IMG/VR virus record: IMGVR_UViG_3300036985_000965
Coordinates: 1-29,287 of that record
Length of the DNA stretch: 29,287 nt
Source of the DNA: a virus
Strand: one strand, 5' to 3'
Shown: positions 9,039-19,604 of the stretch, piece after piece
Layout of the letters: the number at the start of each line of letters is the position of its first letter
How positions within the stretch are numbered: the first letter of the stretch is position 1
Notes under the pieces: model-generated
Told to the model about the DNA's origin: nothing
The model's input: only the letters and a program-made list of their open reading frames with translations
The model's database searches: none
Made by a program: the position numbers and the translations under genes

Positions 9039-11660
9039 ATGGCAAGTACCTATTCACCACTTTTACGTATTCAACTTATCACAACTGGTGAACAGTCTGG
9101 TACTTGGGGTACGACTACTAACACTAACTTAGGCACCTTAATTGAAGACGCTATTGCTGGAACGGCGGCTATTGATGTTACTTCGGGCAATATTACCTTA
9201 ACCTCCGTAGATGGTCTGTATGACCAATCACGGTGCGCCGCGATCCGTGTCTCAGGGACACCGGGCGTATCCCGCAATATTATCGCACCCGCGGCTAGTC
9301 ATATATATGTCGTGGCCAACGGATCAGATGCAGCGGTTGTATTAAAGACATCCACCTCTACAGGTTTGACTATCCCTACGGGCCAAATATACCTTGCCTA
9401 TTATGACCCTACTGTAGGCGTGGCTGACTTTAAGATGGTAGGTCAGGCTATTGCGTCTACTAATACGGCCAATACACTGGTGTTACGCGATGCTTCTGGC
9501 AACTTCTCTGCTGGCATGATTACGGCTAATTTAACGGGTAACGTTACAGGTAATGCAAGCACTGTTACAACCAATGCCAACTTGACGGGCGCTGTTACTT
9601 CTGTGGGCAATGCCACTTCATTGGGGTCTTTTACTTCTGCTAATTTAGCTGCTGCATTGACCGATGAGACAGGTACTGGTGCAAATGTATTTGCCACTAG
9701 TCCTACATTAGTGACGCCTTTATTAGGCACGCCAACGTCAGGCACGTTGACTAATTGTACTGGTCTTCCAGTAGGCTCAGGCGTAAGTGGATTAGGCACT
9801 GGCGTTGCAACGTTTTTAGCGACCCCATCAAGTGCCAACCTTGCCGCGGCTCTTACAGACGAGACAGGAACTGGTGCAAATGTATTTGCCACAAGCCCTA
9901 CACTAGTTACTCCTTTACTTGGCACGCCTACCTCAGGCACTTTAACCAACTGTACAGGATTGCCTATTTCATCAGGCGTAAGTGGGTTGGGTACTAACGT
10001 TTCAACATTCTTAGCAACCCCTACTAGCGCTAACTTGGCCGCGGCGTTAACTGACGAGACAGGAACTGGCTCTGCTGTGTTTTCTGTGTCTCCAGCACTA
10101 ACTGGGACACCAACCGTTCCTACAGCGTTAACCGGCACTAGCACTACGCAAATTGCTTCAACTGCGTTTGTAGTTAATCAAATCGGTGCTATTTCAGCGG
10201 GAGTTACTTCGTTTAGTGCAGGGACAACAGGCTTTACTCCTTCTACCGCTACGACGGGTGTCGTTACGTTAGCCGGTAATTTAGCCGTAGCTAACGGGGG
10301 AACAGGTGCAGTTGCGATTACAGGGACTGGCAATAACGTATTGTCAACAACCCCTACCCTTGTAACGCCGATATTAGGCACCCCTACTTCAGGTACTTTG
10401 ACAAACTGTACAGGTCTTCCAATAGCGTCAGGTGTTTCAGGACTAGCTGTCGGCGCAGCGACATTCTTAGCTACGCCCTCAAGTACTAATTTAGCCGCGT
10501 TACTTACAGACGAGACAGGATCAGGTGCTAACGTATTTGCTACTAGCCCGACTTTAGTCACACCAATTTTAGGCACACCAGCATCAGGTAACTTAACCAA
10601 CTGTACCGCCCTGCCTATTTCATCAGGCGTATCGGGCTTAGGTACAGGTGTAGCGACATTCTTAGCTACGCCATCAAGCGCTAACTTAGCAGCAGCGTTA
10701 ACGGATGAGACAGGCACTGGCTCTGCTGTGTTTGCTACTAGTCCTACTTTAGTAACACCTGCACTTGGTACTCCAACATCAGGTACTTTGACAAACTGTA
10801 TAGGTCTTCCTGTGAATACAGGCGTAAGTGGATTAGGTACAGGAGTCGCAACATTTTTAACTACTCCAACAAGTGCCAATCTAGCTGCTGCTCTTACAGA
10901 TGAAACAGGTACTGGCTCTGCTGTGTTTGCTACTAGTCCTACTTTAGTCACACCAAACTTAGGGACACCTAGTACTTTAGTTGGTACAAATATTACAGGT
11001 ACTGCAGCAAGCCTTACTGCGGGAAACGCCACAACGGCAACAACGGCAACAACGGCAACTAATATTGCCTCTGGTGGCGCAGGTCAAGTTCCATACAACA
11101 CTGGTTCAGGAGCTACATCTTTTGTTGCAGCGGGTACAACAGGACAAGTATTAAGGTCAACTGGAACTTCAGCGCCTGCCTGGGGCAGCGCTATTACCGT
11201 TGAGACATCATTTTCCCTGATTGGTGCTCAAGCGCTTACGTATACAGCAATTCCTTCTTGGGTTAGGAAAATTACTATATTGATAGCGGATGCTAATACT
11301 TCAGGTACCTCTCCTATAATATTTCAAATAGGAGTAACTACTCTAACCACCTCTGGATATAAAAACTCTAAGACTAACCAAACTTCTACAGGTACTGCAG
11401 GTAGCTATAACGCGTCTGCAACGGGAGCAGAGATTAGTCAGGGCTCAGCTTCCTCTAACATAACGGGGTCCGTGACATTTACACGCGCACTTGGAGATGT
11501 ATGGACATGGTCTGGCGTATTTGGTGGAAGTGTTACAAACTTTATGATGACAACCTGTGGGAATGTTACCGTAGTAGGTAATGTAAACATCGTTGGTGTA
11601 ACCTTCGTCAATGGTACCGACCAGTTTGATAGCGGAACTATTAACGTTTATTATGAGTAA
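9039..11660 (+). CDS. Tail fibre protein with 65-aa repeats (873 aa)
   Basis: The N-terminal ~130 residues (TYSPLLRIQLITTGEQSGTW, then GTTTNTNLGTLIEDAIAG) resemble the virion-attachment domain of podovirus/prophage fibre proteins. Residues 200 to about 645 are six full or partial copies of a 65-residue module containing NLAAALTDETGTG, SPTLVTP-LGTPTSGTLTNC and SGVSGLGTG. A different fibre module (GTSTTQIASTAFV, residues about 368-380) is inserted in the third copy. A low-complexity linker (ATTATTATT) leads to a C-terminal ~150-residue domain rich in aromatic and beta residues, the probable receptor-binding head. AAAGGA precedes the ATG. The repeat family is common in phage fibres; trimeric fibre function is inference from that. 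Confidence 0.8.
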   Translation: MASTYSPLLRIQLITTGEQSGTWGTTTNTNLGTLIEDAIAGTAAIDVTSGNITLTSVDGLYDQSRCAAIRVSGTPGVSRNIIAPAASHIYVVANGSDAAVVLKTSTSTGLTIPTGQIYLAYYDPTVGVADFKMVGQAIASTNTANTLVLRDASGNFSAGMITANLTGNVTGNASTVTTNANLTGAVTSVGNATSLGSFTSANLAAALTDETGTGANVFATSPTLVTPLLGTPTSGTLTNCTGLPVGSGVSGLGTGVATFLATPSSANLAAALTDETGTGANVFATSPTLVTPLLGTPTSGTLTNCTGLPISSGVSGLGTNVSTFLATPTSANLAAALTDETGTGSAVFSVSPALTGTPTVPTALTGTSTTQIASTAFVVNQIGAISAGVTSFSAGTTGFTPSTATTGVVTLAGNLAVANGGTGAVAITGTGNNVLSTTPTLVTPILGTPTSGTLTNCTGLPIASGVSGLAVGAATFLATPSSTNLAALLTDETGSGANVFATSPTLVTPILGTPASGNLTNCTALPISSGVSGLGTGVATFLATPSSANLAAALTDETGTGSAVFATSPTLVTPALGTPTSGTLTNCIGLPVNTGVSGLGTGVATFLTTPTSANLAAALTDETGTGSAVFATSPTLVTPNLGTPSTLVGTNITGTAASLTAGNATTATTATTATNIASGGAGQVPYNTGSGATSFVAAGTTGQVLRSTGTSAPAWGSAITVETSFSLIGAQALTYTAIPSWVRKITILIADANTSGTSPIIFQIGVTTLTTSGYKNSKTNQTSTGTAGSYNASATGAEISQGSASSNITGSVTFTRALGDVWTWSGVFGGSVTNFMMTTCGNVTVVGNVNIVGVTFVNGTDQFDSGTINVYYE
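9636..10973 (+). repeat. 195-bp modules encoding a 65-aa fibre repeat
   Basis: Copies begin at 9636, 9831, 10026, 10482, 10677 and 10872, each at an S-(A/T)-N-L-A-A codon set. Copies 1, 2, 4 and 5 are exactly 195 bp. Copy 3 is split by an inserted module (about 10090-10345) and resumes with TPTLVTPILGTPTSG. Copy 6 is cut after 34 residues. Copies share long nearly identical DNA stretches, so homologous recombination or copy-number change is likely. Confidence 0.9.
11031..11057 (+). repeat. 9-bp tandem repeat (ACAACGGCA x3)
   Basis: Three perfect copies encode an Ala-Thr-Thr linker between the 65-aa repeats and the C-terminal head domain of the fibre. Being in multiples of three, slippage would lengthen or shorten the linker without breaking the frame. 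Confidence 0.85.
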
Positions 11661-11663
11661 CGC

Positions 11664-12104
11664 ATGAAACTCTCGGAGCACTTTAGTTTAAATGAATTTA
11701 CCGCATCAGAGACAGCGCTGCGTAAAGGCATCGACAACATCCCAGGGCCAGCCGTCACGGAAAAGTTACGCATGCTGGCTGCTACACTGGAGCAAGTTCG
11801 TAGCCTTTTGGGCAATAATTCCATTCGTATATCTAGTGGCTATCGCAGCCTTGCTCTTAATCGTGCTATTGGAAGTGGTGATTTATCTGCGCACGTACTG
11901 GGTTATGCCGTTGATTTTACGTGTCCGGGCTTTGGTACACCGAAAGAAATAGCCAACAAGATCGCGCAGTCACCGATTAAATTCGACCAGCTCATATATG
12001 AAGGCACGTGGATACACTTAAGCATAGACCCACGCAACAGACGAGAAGTGCTCACTGCGCATTTTGGCAAAGGCAAAACAAGTTACACAAAAGGGATTGC
12101 ATGA
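11664..12104 (+). CDS. Endolysin, peptidase M15 type
   Basis: The 146-aa product carries the zinc-peptidase pattern of the M15 family: SGYRS (residues 58-62), S75-A-H77-x6-D84 within SAHVLGYAVDF, and W116-I-H118. H77, D84 and H118 are the expected zinc ligands and E113 is a candidate catalytic acid. Such enzymes cut peptide bonds in the peptidoglycan stem. The length is normal for a single-domain phage endolysin; there is no signal peptide or SAR anchor, so export depends on a holin. The ATG is three bases after the fibre stop with no good ribosome-binding site, which suggests coupling to fibre translation. The stop overlaps the next ATG (ATGA). Confidence 0.88.
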   Translation: MKLSEHFSLNEFTASETALRKGIDNIPGPAVTEKLRMLAATLEQVRSLLGNNSIRISSGYRSLALNRAIGSGDLSAHVLGYAVDFTCPGFGTPKEIANKIAQSPIKFDQLIYEGTWIHLSIDPRNRREVLTAHFGKGKTSYTKGIA

Positions 12105-12289
12105 AGAAGTGGTATAAGTCTAAAGTGCTTTGGTTTAATGTGGCTGTTGCTGTCGGTGCAGCGGTTGAGGCATCACTTACACTTGTACAGGGCTACTTCG
12201 ACCCACGCGTATTTCTAGGAATAATAGGCGTAATGGCGGGGATTAATGTTGTACTCCGATTTTTAACTACAACTGGGGTATCTAAGTGA
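12101..12289 (+). CDS. Holin-like small membrane protein (62 aa)
   Basis: The start is taken at ATG 12101, overlapping the endolysin stop and preceded by AAGGG, rather than at an upstream in-frame ATG (12008) buried in the endolysin. The product MKKWYKSKVLWFNVAVAVGA continues with two hydrophobic segments (about residues 11-29 and 37-55) joined by a short loop with DPR. A basic N-terminus and two membrane spans in a 62-aa protein next to an M15 endolysin and spanins fit a class II-like holin. The identity is contextual; there is no sequence motif that defines holins. Confidence 0.7.
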   Translation: MKKWYKSKVLWFNVAVAVGAAVEASLTLVQGYFDPRVFLGIIGVMAGINVVLRFLTTTGVSK

Positions 12290-12774
12290 TACCCTTGACC
12301 TTTAACTTTAAACACGCTTTAATTGCAGGCAGTGTCTTTATAGCCTTTAGTGCAGGTTGGGTAACTAACGGATGGCGCCACGACGCTGCACTTAAAAAAG
12401 CACTGCAAGAAACAATAGACTTACAACGCGCATACGATGACTATGCTAGGGAAGCGGTATCTAAATTTCAGAACCATCAAGCCGAGCAAGTTATCGTCTA
12501 TCGTGATATAAAAAGGAAGGTAAAAGATGTTACGGATAACAGGATATGTTTTGTTGACAGCAATGCTCTCAGCTTGTGGAACAGCGCTCTTACAGGGAAC
12601 GTGCCCAAAACCGCCACAAGAACTACTAAAGAGACCCCCCTTACCAGTTCCGTTGTTACAGATGAGCAAGTCCTTACCAACGTCGTAGAGAACTTTGAGC
12701 AATCTAAACAGATACGCGATCAACTCAATGCACTCATTGACTGGTTTGAAAATAACGAAGCAATAGGTAAGTAA
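12286..12774 (+). CDS. Rz: Inner-membrane spanin (Rz-like i-spanin)
   Basis: It starts at GTG 12286 overlapping the holin stop (GTGA). The 162-aa protein has one N-terminal membrane span (about residues 11-27, ALIAGSVFIAFSAGWV) and a periplasmic helical region with charged heptads (LKKALQETIDLQRAYDDYAR). Conserved-looking NRICFVDSNALSLWNSAL and a C-terminal helix (NFEQSKQIRDQLNALIDWFE) follow. This is the plan of phage i-spanins, which join an outer-membrane lipoprotein to disrupt the Gram-negative outer membrane in the last lysis step. The embedded Rz1-like lipoprotein in its +1 frame strongly supports the call. It also implies a Gram-negative host. Confidence 0.85.
   Translation: MIPLTFNFKHALIAGSVFIAFSAGWVTNGWRHDAALKKALQETIDLQRAYDDYAREAVSKFQNHQAEQVIVYRDIKRKVKDVTDNRICFVDSNALSLWNSALTGNVPKTATRTTKETPLTSSVVTDEQVLTNVVENFEQSKQIRDQLNALIDWFENNEAIGK
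12527..12688 (+). CDS. Rz1: Outer-membrane spanin (Rz1-like), embedded in the i-spanin gene
   Basis: This 53-codon frame lies entirely inside the i-spanin gene in the +1 frame. It begins at ATG 12527, six bases after a strong AAGGAAGG (12513-12520), and ends at TAG 12686-12688. The product MLRITGYVLLTAMLSACGTA starts with a basic residue, a hydrophobic core and a lipobox L14-S-A-C17, so signal peptidase II would cut before Cys17. The mature 37 residues are Pro-rich (CPKPPQELLKRPPLPVP), as in lambda Rz1. An embedded lipoprotein gene inside an i-spanin is the classic Rz/Rz1 arrangement. It is too short for normal ORF length cut-offs and is likely to be missed by automatic annotation. Confidence 0.88.
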   Translation: MLRITGYVLLTAMLSACGTALLQGTCPKPPQELLKRPPLPVPLLQMSKSLPTS

Positions 12775-12775
12775 T

Positions 12776-14638
12776 ATGCCATTATTAAAACTAACACTAA
12801 AGCCAGGCATTGATAAGCAAAACACCGAATACGGAGCCGAGGGAGGCTGGGTAGACGGGGACTATGTTCGTTTTCAAGATGGACTACCTGAAAAAATAGG
12901 TGGCTGGCAGCATTTTAATGGCACAGCTCAATACCTAATAGGCATGGTCAGTGATGTAATGACCTGGAATGCTTTAGACGGTGTTCCATATATTATTGTT
13001 GGGACTACCCGTAAACTCTATGTGGGGAGTAATGAACAGTGGTCGGATATCACTCCGATTAGAGAAACGACAACGACTGCGACTTTTAATACCACAATAG
13101 GCAGTGACATAGTAAAAGTGAATGAGTCTACCCTAGACATGCGGGAAGGAGATTTTGTCACGCTATCTAGTGTTACAGGTAATCCAGGAGGCATTCCTGA
13201 TACCACCCTGGCGGGTGAATATGAAGTACAAAATATTATCAGCGCTACTCAATACACCATCAAGGCCTCGGTCAATGCTACAAGCACTGCTGGCCCGGTA
13301 GGTACGGCCACTATTACATATCAAATAAGCGTTGGCGATGACATCAGTTATTTTGACTATGGATGGGGAACAGGCACATGGGGTCTTTCTACATGGGGAA
13401 CACCTCGCAGCCCTTCCGTGGTACTAGGGTCATCTCTTGAGTCACGCATATGGCAGTTAGATAACTACGGAGAAGACGTTATATGCCAATTGGTAGACGG
13501 TGGAACGTACCTTTGGGATACTAGTTTAGGTGCAGGAACTCCTGCTGTTCAGATTGCAGGTGCTCCAACGAAGAGTACATTTGCGCTTGTTTCCACCCCT
13601 GATAGGCATTTAATATGCTTTGGAACAGAGGACGTAATTGGCACTACAACATCCCAAGACCCTATGTTTGTGCGTTTTTCAGACCAGGAAAACATCGCGG
13701 AATTTGAACCTACTGCAACAAATACGGCGGGTGGACAACGGCTCACGGACGGTAGTCATATCGTATCGGCCATTCGCTCACGTGGTCAAATTCTTATCTT
13801 TACGGATACTTCGCTACATGGCATGCAGTATGTAGGTCCTCCGTACACCTTTGGTTTTTCTCAGTTAGGTACTAACTGTGGATTGATCGGGGCCCACGCG
13901 TCAGCGGATGTCAACGGTGTAGCCATGTGGATGGGAACGGGTGCTTTTTATGTGTTTGATGGTACAGTAAAGAAAATACCATGCACTGTTCAGGACTATG
14001 TATTTAAAGACTTAAATAAAGTCCAAGGCCCTAAGATATGTATGGCCGTCAACTCCGAATACAATGAAGTAACGTGGTTCTATTGCTCGTTTACCTCTGA
14101 CTATATTGACCGTTATGTTACCTATGACTACATAGAAGGTGTGTGGTCTATTGGCACTATGGCAAGAACAGCCTGGACAGATACGGGTACCTATGACCAG
14201 CCTATTGGAATTGAATACCTGCCAACAAGCACTGCAACACCTATTGGAACTACTATCAATGGATTAACAGCAGGACGTTCTTTGGTATATTTACAGGAAA
14301 TAGGCGCCAATGCCGTCGATCAGCCCATAACTGCGTATTTACGGTCAGGTTATTTTGATATTGGCGATGGAGACCAAATGCTGTTTATGAAGCGCTTTAT
14401 CCCTGACTTTAGGAATTTTGTAGGCGACCTTACAATGCGACTATTACTGCGAGCATATCCGTCTACTACGGCAAGTCCTAGTTCACTAGATCCCTATGTA
14501 ATTGATCCTACTACGGATAAAGTAGATACGAGAGCTCGCGGTAGACAGATTTCCGTGAGCATGGAAAGCGATACTCTTGATAGTACTTGGCGCTTTGGTA
14601 CTCTTCGCGTGGATATTCAACCGGATGGCCTACGATGA
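12776..14638 (+). CDS. Tail nozzle / tubular protein B-like (P22 gp10 / T7 gp12 type)
   Basis: The 620-aa protein opens PLLKLTLKPGIDKQNTEYGA with VDGDYVRFQDGLPEKIGGWQ, a characteristic opening of podovirus tail-hub/nozzle proteins. A GWGTGTWGLSTWGTPRSP segment (about residues 196-213) and repeated VYLWD/VFDG-type strands are consistent with a beta-propeller-like platform. The C-terminal region (FMKRFIPDF, then RGRQISVSMESDTLDSTWRFGTLRVDI) is also typical. It would form the hexameric nozzle at the end of the short tail, below the adaptor ring encoded at 1900-3579. The ATG comes one base after the i-spanin stop, and its own stop overlaps the next ATG (ATGA). Confidence 0.75.
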   Translation: MPLLKLTLKPGIDKQNTEYGAEGGWVDGDYVRFQDGLPEKIGGWQHFNGTAQYLIGMVSDVMTWNALDGVPYIIVGTTRKLYVGSNEQWSDITPIRETTTTATFNTTIGSDIVKVNESTLDMREGDFVTLSSVTGNPGGIPDTTLAGEYEVQNIISATQYTIKASVNATSTAGPVGTATITYQISVGDDISYFDYGWGTGTWGLSTWGTPRSPSVVLGSSLESRIWQLDNYGEDVICQLVDGGTYLWDTSLGAGTPAVQIAGAPTKSTFALVSTPDRHLICFGTEDVIGTTTSQDPMFVRFSDQENIAEFEPTATNTAGGQRLTDGSHIVSAIRSRGQILIFTDTSLHGMQYVGPPYTFGFSQLGTNCGLIGAHASADVNGVAMWMGTGAFYVFDGTVKKIPCTVQDYVFKDLNKVQGPKICMAVNSEYNEVTWFYCSFTSDYIDRYVTYDYIEGVWSIGTMARTAWTDTGTYDQPIGIEYLPTSTATPIGTTINGLTAGRSLVYLQEIGANAVDQPITAYLRSGYFDIGDGDQMLFMKRFIPDFRNFVGDLTMRLLLRAYPSTTASPSSLDPYVIDPTTDKVDTRARGRQISVSMESDTLDSTWRFGTLRVDIQPDGLR

Positions 14639-17120: not shown

Positions 17121-19604
17121 ATGGCTAACGAAACCAGTACCCAGATTGTACGGGAAGCTCCCGAAATTGAGGCCTATAAACTAGGTCTCTTAAAAGAAGC
17201 ACAAAATCTATACAAAACACCACTAAACTTACCTGCCCAGGAGGCAGCGGCTTTATCTGGTACAACTAACCAGGCCATAGACCTTGCCAAACAAGGCATT
17301 GGTGCTTATCAACCTTACCTAGATGCAGCATCAGCTGGCATTACACAAGGTCAAAACATCGCGGGCCAAGGCGCAAACGTTGCTGCCAATGTAAATGCGG
17401 CGCCTACCTTTGCTAATGCGCAAGGAATTATGAATGCAGGTGTAAATGCTGCAGGAGGCATTGGCCAAGCGGCTGACTTAGCCGGCAATTACCTACAAGC
17501 TAACCTAGGTGAATCACAAGGGGTATTAGGCACTGCAGCAGGTATGGCGCAAAACTCTATCAATGCAGGTATTCCAGTACAGGGCGCCGCGTTAGGTACA
17601 GTTGGTCAAGGTATCAATGCATACGGCCAGATGGAAGGCGGCGCTGCTGCACAAGCAGCAGGACAAGGTATGGTAGGCCAAGGCGCTCAACGTTCCGATC
17701 AAATGGTAACTGCCTCGATGCCTGCCTTAGCACAAGGCCAGGAGTCTATTGGGCAAGGTATGCAAACGGCCGGTCAGATAGCAGGAGCCGGTTTAGGTGC
17801 GCAACAAACAGGTCAAGCTATGGTGGGCCAAGGCGCAGAAGCCTATAACAGAATGGAAAGTGGTGCTGCGGCACAGGGCATTGGCCAGGGCATGGTTGGT
17901 CAAAGTGCTGGTATGGCCAATCAAATGGTGGGCGCTGCTATGCCTGCCATAGGCCAAGGTCAAGCTACTATAGGTCGTGGGATAGAAACCGCAGGCCGTA
18001 TATCTGACGCAGGTCTTGGTGCTCAACAAACAGGTCAAAACTACGTAGCACAGGGTGCAGGTATGGCTAACCAAATGGTTGGCACGGGCATTACTGCACA
18101 GGAAAGAGGGTTAAATATTGTTGATCAGGGTATTGCAGGCCTAAATAGAGGCACGGCATCCTATAATCCAGAATCTGCACAGGCTTTCATGAATCCGTAT
18201 CAACAACAAGTAACGGATAAGGCCCTACAAGAAATGCGTCGTCAAGCAACTATCGCGGCCCAAGGAACAGCAGCTCAAGCTGTTCGTTCAGGCGCATTTG
18301 GCGGTACACGTGAAGGCGTTCAACGCGCTGAACAAGAGCGTAACCTTCAAGACTTGATGTCACAACGCGTATTCCAAGACATGTCTGCTAATTACAACCA
18401 GGCTCAGACAGCAGGTATGACGGCCTTTGAACAAGCTCGTCAACGCGAACTTACTGCCGGTCAAGGCACTATAAATGCAGGTACTGCTACGGGTAATCTA
18501 GGCACAAATGCTGCTAATATCTACAGTGCAGCAGGTCAAAACCTAACAAATGCAGGTACTGCTACCGGTGCTCTAGGCACTAACGCGGCTAATATTCTTG
18601 CTAATCAAGCAGGTCTAGAAGGCACGTTAGGTAGTCAACAAGGTGCTTTAGGTACAGCCGCTGCTAATGTGTACAGTCAAGCAGGTCAAAATCTAACCAA
18701 CGCTGGGCAAGCGGCAGGTGCTTTAGGGGCTAATGAAGCCAACATATACGCTAATATGGGCCAAGGCCTAACAAATGCTGGTACTGCAACCGGCGCCTTA
18801 GGGACCAATGCATCTAACATTCTTGCTACTCAGGCAGGGCTGGAAGGAACGCTTGGTTCTCAACAAGGTGCACTAGGTACCCAGGTAGCCAATGTATACG
18901 GTCAGTCCGGTCAGAACTTAGTTAATGCAGGGCAAGCTACAGGCGCACTTGGTGTTAACGAGGCTAACATATACAGCAACATGGGCCAAGGCTTGACCAA
19001 TGCAGGCGCTACACAAAGTAACATAGGAAATGTGGCCTCTAACATATACGGTAATGCAGCTAATACGACTGCTAATATAGGCAGCACCTTAGGTAATCAA
19101 GCTATTTCCAATACGCAACTAGGGCAGTCTGGTGTAGCCAATATGGGCAACTTATCTGCCTCTGAAGCGGCCACATTGGGCAATCTAGGCCAAGGCATAG
19201 GTGCGTTAGGTACATCTGCTGCTAATGTGGACTTGAGTAAAGCTAATACAATGGGTAATATTGGTACTAACATTGCTAATATGGGTACTGCTCAGGGTCA
19301 GATAGGCGAGGCTGTTCAACGTGCAGGCGTGACAGACGTCAACTTGTTAAGTGGCATTGGCTCTATTGAACAACAAAATGCTCAAAATCAACTTGATGCT
19401 GTACGTAATACGCAGCTTCAAGAAACAATGGCACCGTATCAACAATTGGGTTTTGTCTCAGATATCTACAAAAATGCGCCAACCTCACAGATGTCAATGA
19501 CCTCTTCTAGTGCACCTCAGCCTTCTACTTTCCAAACAGTAGCGGGTACAGTACTAGGCGGCGTTACCACAGCGGCTGCAGCAAGTAAAGCTGGTTTATT
19601 TTAA
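17121..19604 (+). CDS. Repeat-rich ejection-type virion protein (827 aa)
   Basis: The ATG directly follows the upstream stop. Residues 1-60 are a charged helical start (VREAPEIEAYKLGLLKEAQN). Residues 60-345 are Ala/Gly/Gln/Met-rich with two 74-residue repeats (170-317). Residues 347-451 form the most ordinary-looking segment: NPESAQAFMNPYQQQVTDKA, then AQAVRSGAFGGTREGVQRAE and QARQRELTAGQ. Residues 452-651 are eight 25-residue repeats, and a Gly/Asn/Ala tail runs to the end. The NPYQQQVTD and AFGGxREGVQ blocks recur in internal proteins of aquatic podoviruses, as I remember them. A long helical or fibrous internal/ejection protein is the best guess; a tape-measure-like protein is the alternative. 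Confidence 0.6.
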   Translation: MANETSTQIVREAPEIEAYKLGLLKEAQNLYKTPLNLPAQEAAALSGTTNQAIDLAKQGIGAYQPYLDAASAGITQGQNIAGQGANVAANVNAAPTFANAQGIMNAGVNAAGGIGQAADLAGNYLQANLGESQGVLGTAAGMAQNSINAGIPVQGAALGTVGQGINAYGQMEGGAAAQAAGQGMVGQGAQRSDQMVTASMPALAQGQESIGQGMQTAGQIAGAGLGAQQTGQAMVGQGAEAYNRMESGAAAQGIGQGMVGQSAGMANQMVGAAMPAIGQGQATIGRGIETAGRISDAGLGAQQTGQNYVAQGAGMANQMVGTGITAQERGLNIVDQGIAGLNRGTASYNPESAQAFMNPYQQQVTDKALQEMRRQATIAAQGTAAQAVRSGAFGGTREGVQRAEQERNLQDLMSQRVFQDMSANYNQAQTAGMTAFEQARQRELTAGQGTINAGTATGNLGTNAANIYSAAGQNLTNAGTATGALGTNAANILANQAGLEGTLGSQQGALGTAAANVYSQAGQNLTNAGQAAGALGANEANIYANMGQGLTNAGTATGALGTNASNILATQAGLEGTLGSQQGALGTQVANVYGQSGQNLVNAGQATGALGVNEANIYSNMGQGLTNAGATQSNIGNVASNIYGNAANTTANIGSTLGNQAISNTQLGQSGVANMGNLSASEAATLGNLGQGIGALGTSAANVDLSKANTMGNIGTNIANMGTAQGQIGEAVQRAGVTDVNLLSGIGSIEQQNAQNQLDAVRNTQLQETMAPYQQLGFVSDIYKNAPTSQMSMTSSSAPQPSTFQTVAGTVLGGVTTAAAASKAGLF
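17628..18071 (+). repeat. Two 222-bp repeats (74 aa each)
   Basis: Residues 170-243 and 244-317 of the 827-aa protein align without gaps: MEGGAAAQAAGQGMVGQGAQ matches MESGAAAQGIGQGMVGQSAG, and AGLGAQQTGQAMVGQGA matches AGLGAQQTGQNYVAQGA. A looser spacing of about 11 residues between small/hydrophobic positions is visible within each unit. Confidence 0.88.
18474..19073 (+). repeat. Eight 75-bp repeats (25-aa unit) with 225-bp higher-order repeat
   Basis: Units start every 75 bp from 18474. Consensus is N-A-G-x-A-T-G-A-L-G-T-N-A-A-N-I-Y, then x-G-Q-x-L-T. Units 2-4 (18549-18773) and 5-7 (18774-18998) form a second-level duplication of 75 residues (225 bp) with the same order of variants, including the odd unit TLGSQQGALGT. 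Unit 8 is degenerate. This implies triplication of a 25-aa unit followed by duplication of the triplet. Confidence 0.88.

Follow-up and report, generated by a model that had tools for sequence, protein, structure and literature searches.

In phage lambda, the inner-membrane protein Rz meets the outer-membrane, lipid-anchored Rz1 in the periplasm, and, after degradation of the peptidoglycan, the complex they form disrupts the outer membrane through fusion (PMC6139136, PMC5295617). Embedded Rz1 genes read in the +1 frame form a long-described architectural class; about 70% of the described embedded o-spanins end at 0.9-1.0 of the i-spanin, and spanins with unusual lipoboxes are on record (PMC6139136). 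A further kind of overlap between lysis genes has been described in S. aureus phage 187, where the holin-like gene hol187 is embedded out of frame in the endolysin gene ply187 (Loessner 1999, as cited in PMC5810103).

We analyzed virus record IMGVR_UViG_3300036985_000965 of IMG/VR, a contig of 29,287 bases that we refer to over its full length (positions 1-29,287) as the window. Profile searches identified a lysis cassette in the order M15 endolysin, 62-aa holin, Rz, and virion structural protein (phrog_3287). The endolysin is an M15 peptidase of 146 aa (11664-12104, + strand; Peptidase_M15_3, 1.3e-16; phrog_894 endolysin, 1.4e-36), and the small holin that follows it (12101-12289, + strand) matches phrog_5847 holin at 2.8e-4. 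Since both genes lie immediately upstream of Rz, the spanin belongs to a holin/endolysin cassette. Elsewhere in the window are two long ORFs of low complexity and repetitive internal structure that probably encode virion proteins, one of 873 aa with repeated LAAALTDETGTG blocks (9039-11660) and one of 827 aa rich in GTATGALGTN-type repeats and with no PHROG match (17121-19604). An 80-aa protein with an N-terminal membrane span and a probable coiled coil (1276-1518; phrog_7885, phrog_462, phrog_404) is encoded far from the lysis cassette.

The Rz-type i-spanin gene encodes 162 aa (12286-12774, + strand), and its GTG start codon overlaps the stop codon of the holin gene. The original prediction had assigned this gene the Rz plan, and the evidence agrees: the product matches phrog_1403 Rz-like spanin at 4.5e-14, residues 11-27 form a hydrophobic segment, and the protein is laid out as an N-terminal membrane span, a long helix, a linker, and a C-terminal helix. 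In a low-confidence AF2 model (mean pLDDT 60), helices span residues 8-78, 92-103, and 126-159, with residues 104-125 forming an unstructured linker that underlies the Pro-rich part of Rz1.

Wholly within this 162-codon ORF, in its +1 frame, lies a 53-codon frame (12527-12688, + strand) encoding an Rz1-type o-spanin lipoprotein, with a 53-aa precursor (MLRITGYVLLTAMLSACGTALLQGTCPKPPQELLKRPPLPVPLLQMSKSLPTS) and a mature part of ~37 aa. The features originally read from this frame were all recovered at the predicted positions. A strong Shine-Dalgarno-like AAGGAAGG (12513-12520, + strand) is separated from the ATG by six bases (12521-12526), the lipobox LSAC occupies residues 14-17 of the product, and the mature part is Pro-rich, with 8 Pro in 37 residues. 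The residue at +2 is Gly rather than Asp, and a second Cys follows 9 residues after the lipid Cys; the lipoprotein signal was recognized by motif only (LSAC plus Gly at +2). Used alone as a tblastn query, the 53-aa product found nothing in cultured phages.

Comparison with lambda reveals an extensive likeness (PMC6139136, PMC5295617). In both systems Rz1 lies wholly within Rz in the +1 frame and has a lipobox, a short Pro-rich mature part (37 aa here, 40 in lambda), and a second Cys 9 residues past the lipid Cys (C20 and C29 in lambda), while Rz consists of an N-terminal span, helix, linker, and helix. The position of the Rz1 Pro-rich part over the Rz linker also mirrors the complementary sensitive domains of lambda Rz and Rz1 that were found genetically (PMC5295617). 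In contrast with lambda, the window Rz1 has no penta-proline but the motif CPKPPQELLKRPP.P.P instead, the window Rz belongs to PHROG 1403, and the adjoining endolysin is an M15 peptidase. Within the window Rz, Rz1 covers codons 81-134 of 162, or ~0.50-0.83 of the gene, and so stops short of the 0.9-1.0 at which about 70% of the described embedded o-spanins end (PMC6139136).

Burkholderia phage KS9 (NC_013055) likewise carries a holin, an M15 endolysin (53% identical to that of the window), and an Rz gene with an embedded Rz1, although its holin gene precedes the endolysin gene; a tblastn search with the window Rz gave no match to KS9 Rz. Bordetella phage vB_BbrM_PHB04 (NC_047861) has a homologous Rz of 28% identity with an embedded +1 lipoprotein, MNLRKLSLLLSIPMVLSACGTVPSGLTCPPPPASLLVRPAEP... 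(L053 2766-2990), which lies in an annotated Rz-like spanin and is itself unannotated. These two phages divide on the suggestion that relatives may be mis-annotated as lacking an o-spanin: it holds for PHB04, whose RefSeq entry lists the i-spanin and omits the Rz1 within it, but not for KS9, in which both genes are annotated as Rz-like spanin.

Two viral scans yielded 50 loci with an Rz relative, of which one (L043) was too short, leaving 49 that were informative. These homologues were searched for the sequence changes proposed as refuting an embedded Rz1, and none turned up: no stop interrupts the +1 frame, and both the Cys and the Pro-rich segment are kept. In all 49 informative loci, which are not independent and include a few duplicates, a frame in the expected place encodes a hydrophobic N-terminal segment with a lipobox-like Cys and a mature part rich in Pro. 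The Rz1-type frame is embedded in 48 of them and overlapping in one (L015), and the lipobox/Pro-rich frame is kept down to ~25% Rz identity. The homologous Rz1 products contain 8-11 Pro in the mature part, and purine-rich AAGG or AAAGG is the homologues' counterpart of AAGGAAGG. Non-canonical lipoboxes occur among 26 homologues, with LCSC in six and LWSC in one.

In L015 (2129-2597), Rz resembles the window Rz in its N-terminal span only, and the overlapping Rz1-type frame extends beyond the end of Rz. In L033 (3001-3492), the N-terminal half of Rz is near that of the window and the C-terminal half is very different, a pattern suggestive of recombination; Rz still harbors the embedded lipoprotein frame, though with a changed sequence (MLRTIVFVSLIGTQLGCGMNPF...).

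Whether the +1 frame could be an untranslated chance ORF arising from Rz codon use was assessed with the variation among 26 Rz genes. In favor of chance are the shortness of the frame, at 53 codons, and the weak direct match of its product to the Rz1-type profile phrog_456 (E 0.055). However, the Rz1 frame is open in every one of the 26 Rz genes, and the pairwise difference at Rz third positions is suppressed to 0.181 inside the overlap from 0.499 outside it. In 900 simulations in which Rz evolved along the gene tree with the second frame unconstrained, at most 25 of 26 frames were open (mean 6-14), and divergence in the overlap never fell below 0.30. At Rz codons 105-119 the pattern is inverted, with a difference of 0.347 at position 1 and 0.057 at position 3; therefore, Rz1 is the constrained product in this stretch.

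Chance also fares poorly against the motifs, since the lipobox and the Pro-rich motif CPxPPQELLKRP are still present in Rz genes merely ~40% identical; related forms (e.g. CPxPPASLLVRP) occur in more distant loci, PHB04 included. When the window Rz gene was recoded synonymously 20,000 times, the exact 12527-12688 span stayed open in 83 cases, and 12 cases gave rise to some alternative-frame ORF, 40 codons or longer, that carried a lipobox near its N-terminus. Because such outcomes are this rare in recodings, and because frame and motifs are retained in the informative homologues, the frame is more than a chance opening, and we regard a chance ORF as exceedingly improbable. An antisense frame over Rz (12421-12825) was considered and set aside, since no more than 2 of the 26 homologues keep it open.

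A translated, selected lipoprotein could still have a role other than partnering Rz, for instance as a lipoprotein moron or a Cor-type superinfection-exclusion protein, and one homologue does show a weak match to Cor (0.19). Homologues of the 53-aa product, however, match Rz1 PHROG profiles better than the window product does (4.6e-4, 9e-5, and 2.4e-7), the frame is located in the Rz gene of a holin/endolysin cassette, and its Pro-rich tail overlaps the Rz linker, as it does in lambda (PMC5295617). We thus consider a non-Rz1 role very unlikely. Taken together, these data indicate that 12527-12688 almost certainly encodes Rz1, the o-spanin partner in a two-component Rz/Rz1 spanin of the embedded lambda/KS9 class. 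The embedded spanin is real and under selection in both frames; it is of a kind already known, to which the window pair adds a new member.

Its mode of action can be modeled on lambda, from which we infer Rz1 lipidation, complex formation, and membrane fusion. The Rz1 precursor would be exported and its lipobox cleaved, with a lipid placed on Cys17, and the presence of Gly rather than Asp at +2 would direct it to the outer membrane. Rz would be anchored in the inner membrane, and the Pro-rich periplasmic tail of Rz1 would bind the Rz C-terminal helix. The holin and the M15 endolysin would first remove the inner-membrane barrier and the peptidoglycan, after which the Rz-Rz1 complex would fuse or disrupt the outer membrane to release the phage.

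A diderm (Gram-negative) host, as the original prediction had proposed, is a reasonable inference for the window phage. The window's structural (stabilization) protein is 63% identical to its counterpart in phage DSL-LC04, whose host on record belongs to the Gammaproteobacteria, and ~40% identical to pelagiphage proteins. DSL-LC04 has no detectable Rz relative, and its lysis region contains no lipoprotein frame; when cellular genomes were scanned twice with alignments of Rz, no prophage relatives emerged.

While neighboring alternative frames were being checked as controls, a second embedded ORF surfaced in the endolysin gene. This ORF (11692-11952, + strand) lies in the +1 frame of the endolysin gene (11664-12104) and encodes an 86-aa candidate holin/antiholin with a basic N-terminus and one long hydrophobic helix; AF2 predicts a single helix at residues 24-85, with a mean pLDDT of 90-95 over residues 41-60. 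We compared 67 distinct M15 endolysins, of which 30 are at least 60% identical to that of the window and 37 at most 56%. In each of the 30 close endolysins, the +1 frame runs open over 86-98 codons and is strongly hydrophobic, with 19-residue hydropathy maxima of 2.8-3.6 in every case, values that indicate a membrane span. It starts with ATG in 27 of them and with TTG one codon earlier in the other 3. No open hydrophobic +1 frame of that length is found in any of the 37 distant endolysins, whose +1 frames reach at most 74 codons in 36 cases; the exception (L052) has 124 codons and is charged, not hydrophobic. None of the 30 keeps a +2 or an antisense frame open across the endolysin.

Third-position differences among the close 30 endolysins amount to 0.262 over residues 36-84 and 0.510 over residues 98-146, compared to 0.472 and 0.445, respectively, among 36 distant ones; endolysin third positions are thus constrained only in the clade that carries the ORF. 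In 800 neutral simulations of the endolysin, at most 20 of 30 tips were open compared to the 30 observed, and the overlap/non-overlap third-position ratio never fell below 0.76 compared to 0.51 observed. The simulated hydropathy of the core averaged 0.95 (maximum 1.58) compared to 2.13 observed. The 30 open frames and the ratio of 0.51 indicate protein-coding selection in the +1 frame. The frame might instead be a by-product of the M15 motif, but we rejected this reading because the 37 distant M15 endolysins lack it. The constraint could conceivably reflect some other requirement on the nucleotide sequence, although the observed pattern fits a +1 coding frame.

From this comparative pattern, the ORF at 11692-11952 is probably best read as a clade-specific, overprinted membrane lysis gene, a candidate holin/antiholin. 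Profile searches placed its product in no known family (best E 0.05), and cultured phages yielded no match. Two points weigh against this reading: the ORF has no good Shine-Dalgarno sequence, with GGAG lying 13 nt upstream, and the cassette already has a separate holin gene. Several of the more distant M15 endolysins (such as L119, L126, and L092) are preceded at ~200 nt by a separate gene for a 68-69-aa one-span protein (MSEP/MINIDPVEYGKLISKVESLEKK...); the window has no such gene upstream of its endolysin.

The ORF resembles hol187 of phage 187, as that gene is portrayed in the secondary account, in that a gene, holin-like in phage 187 and a candidate holin/antiholin here, lies wholly within the endolysin gene and out of frame. 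The window differs in also having a separate holin gene, and its case is known from comparative evidence. Phage 187 has a Gram-positive host, and its endolysin is unrelated to that of the window. For the full proposal of a doubly overprinted cassette, in which 11692-11952 encodes a translated, selected, single-span membrane protein of 86-91 codons that is of clade-only origin and active as a second holin or antiholin, we see an even balance between its being right and its being wrong. If true, a phage infecting a diderm host would have its holin gene nested in the endolysin gene, with comparative evidence behind the arrangement.

The Rz/Rz1 overlap shows that Rz1 can be under more constraint than the segment of Rz in which it is embedded, and the window provides a clean, deep example. 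PHB04 is a concrete reminder that an embedded Rz1 can drop out of annotation. If the ORF at 11692-11952 is expressed, the cassette would encode three lysis-related membrane proteins, an o-spanin, and an endolysin in ~1.1 kb by means of two independent overprintings, and both embedded genes would escape standard gene finding.
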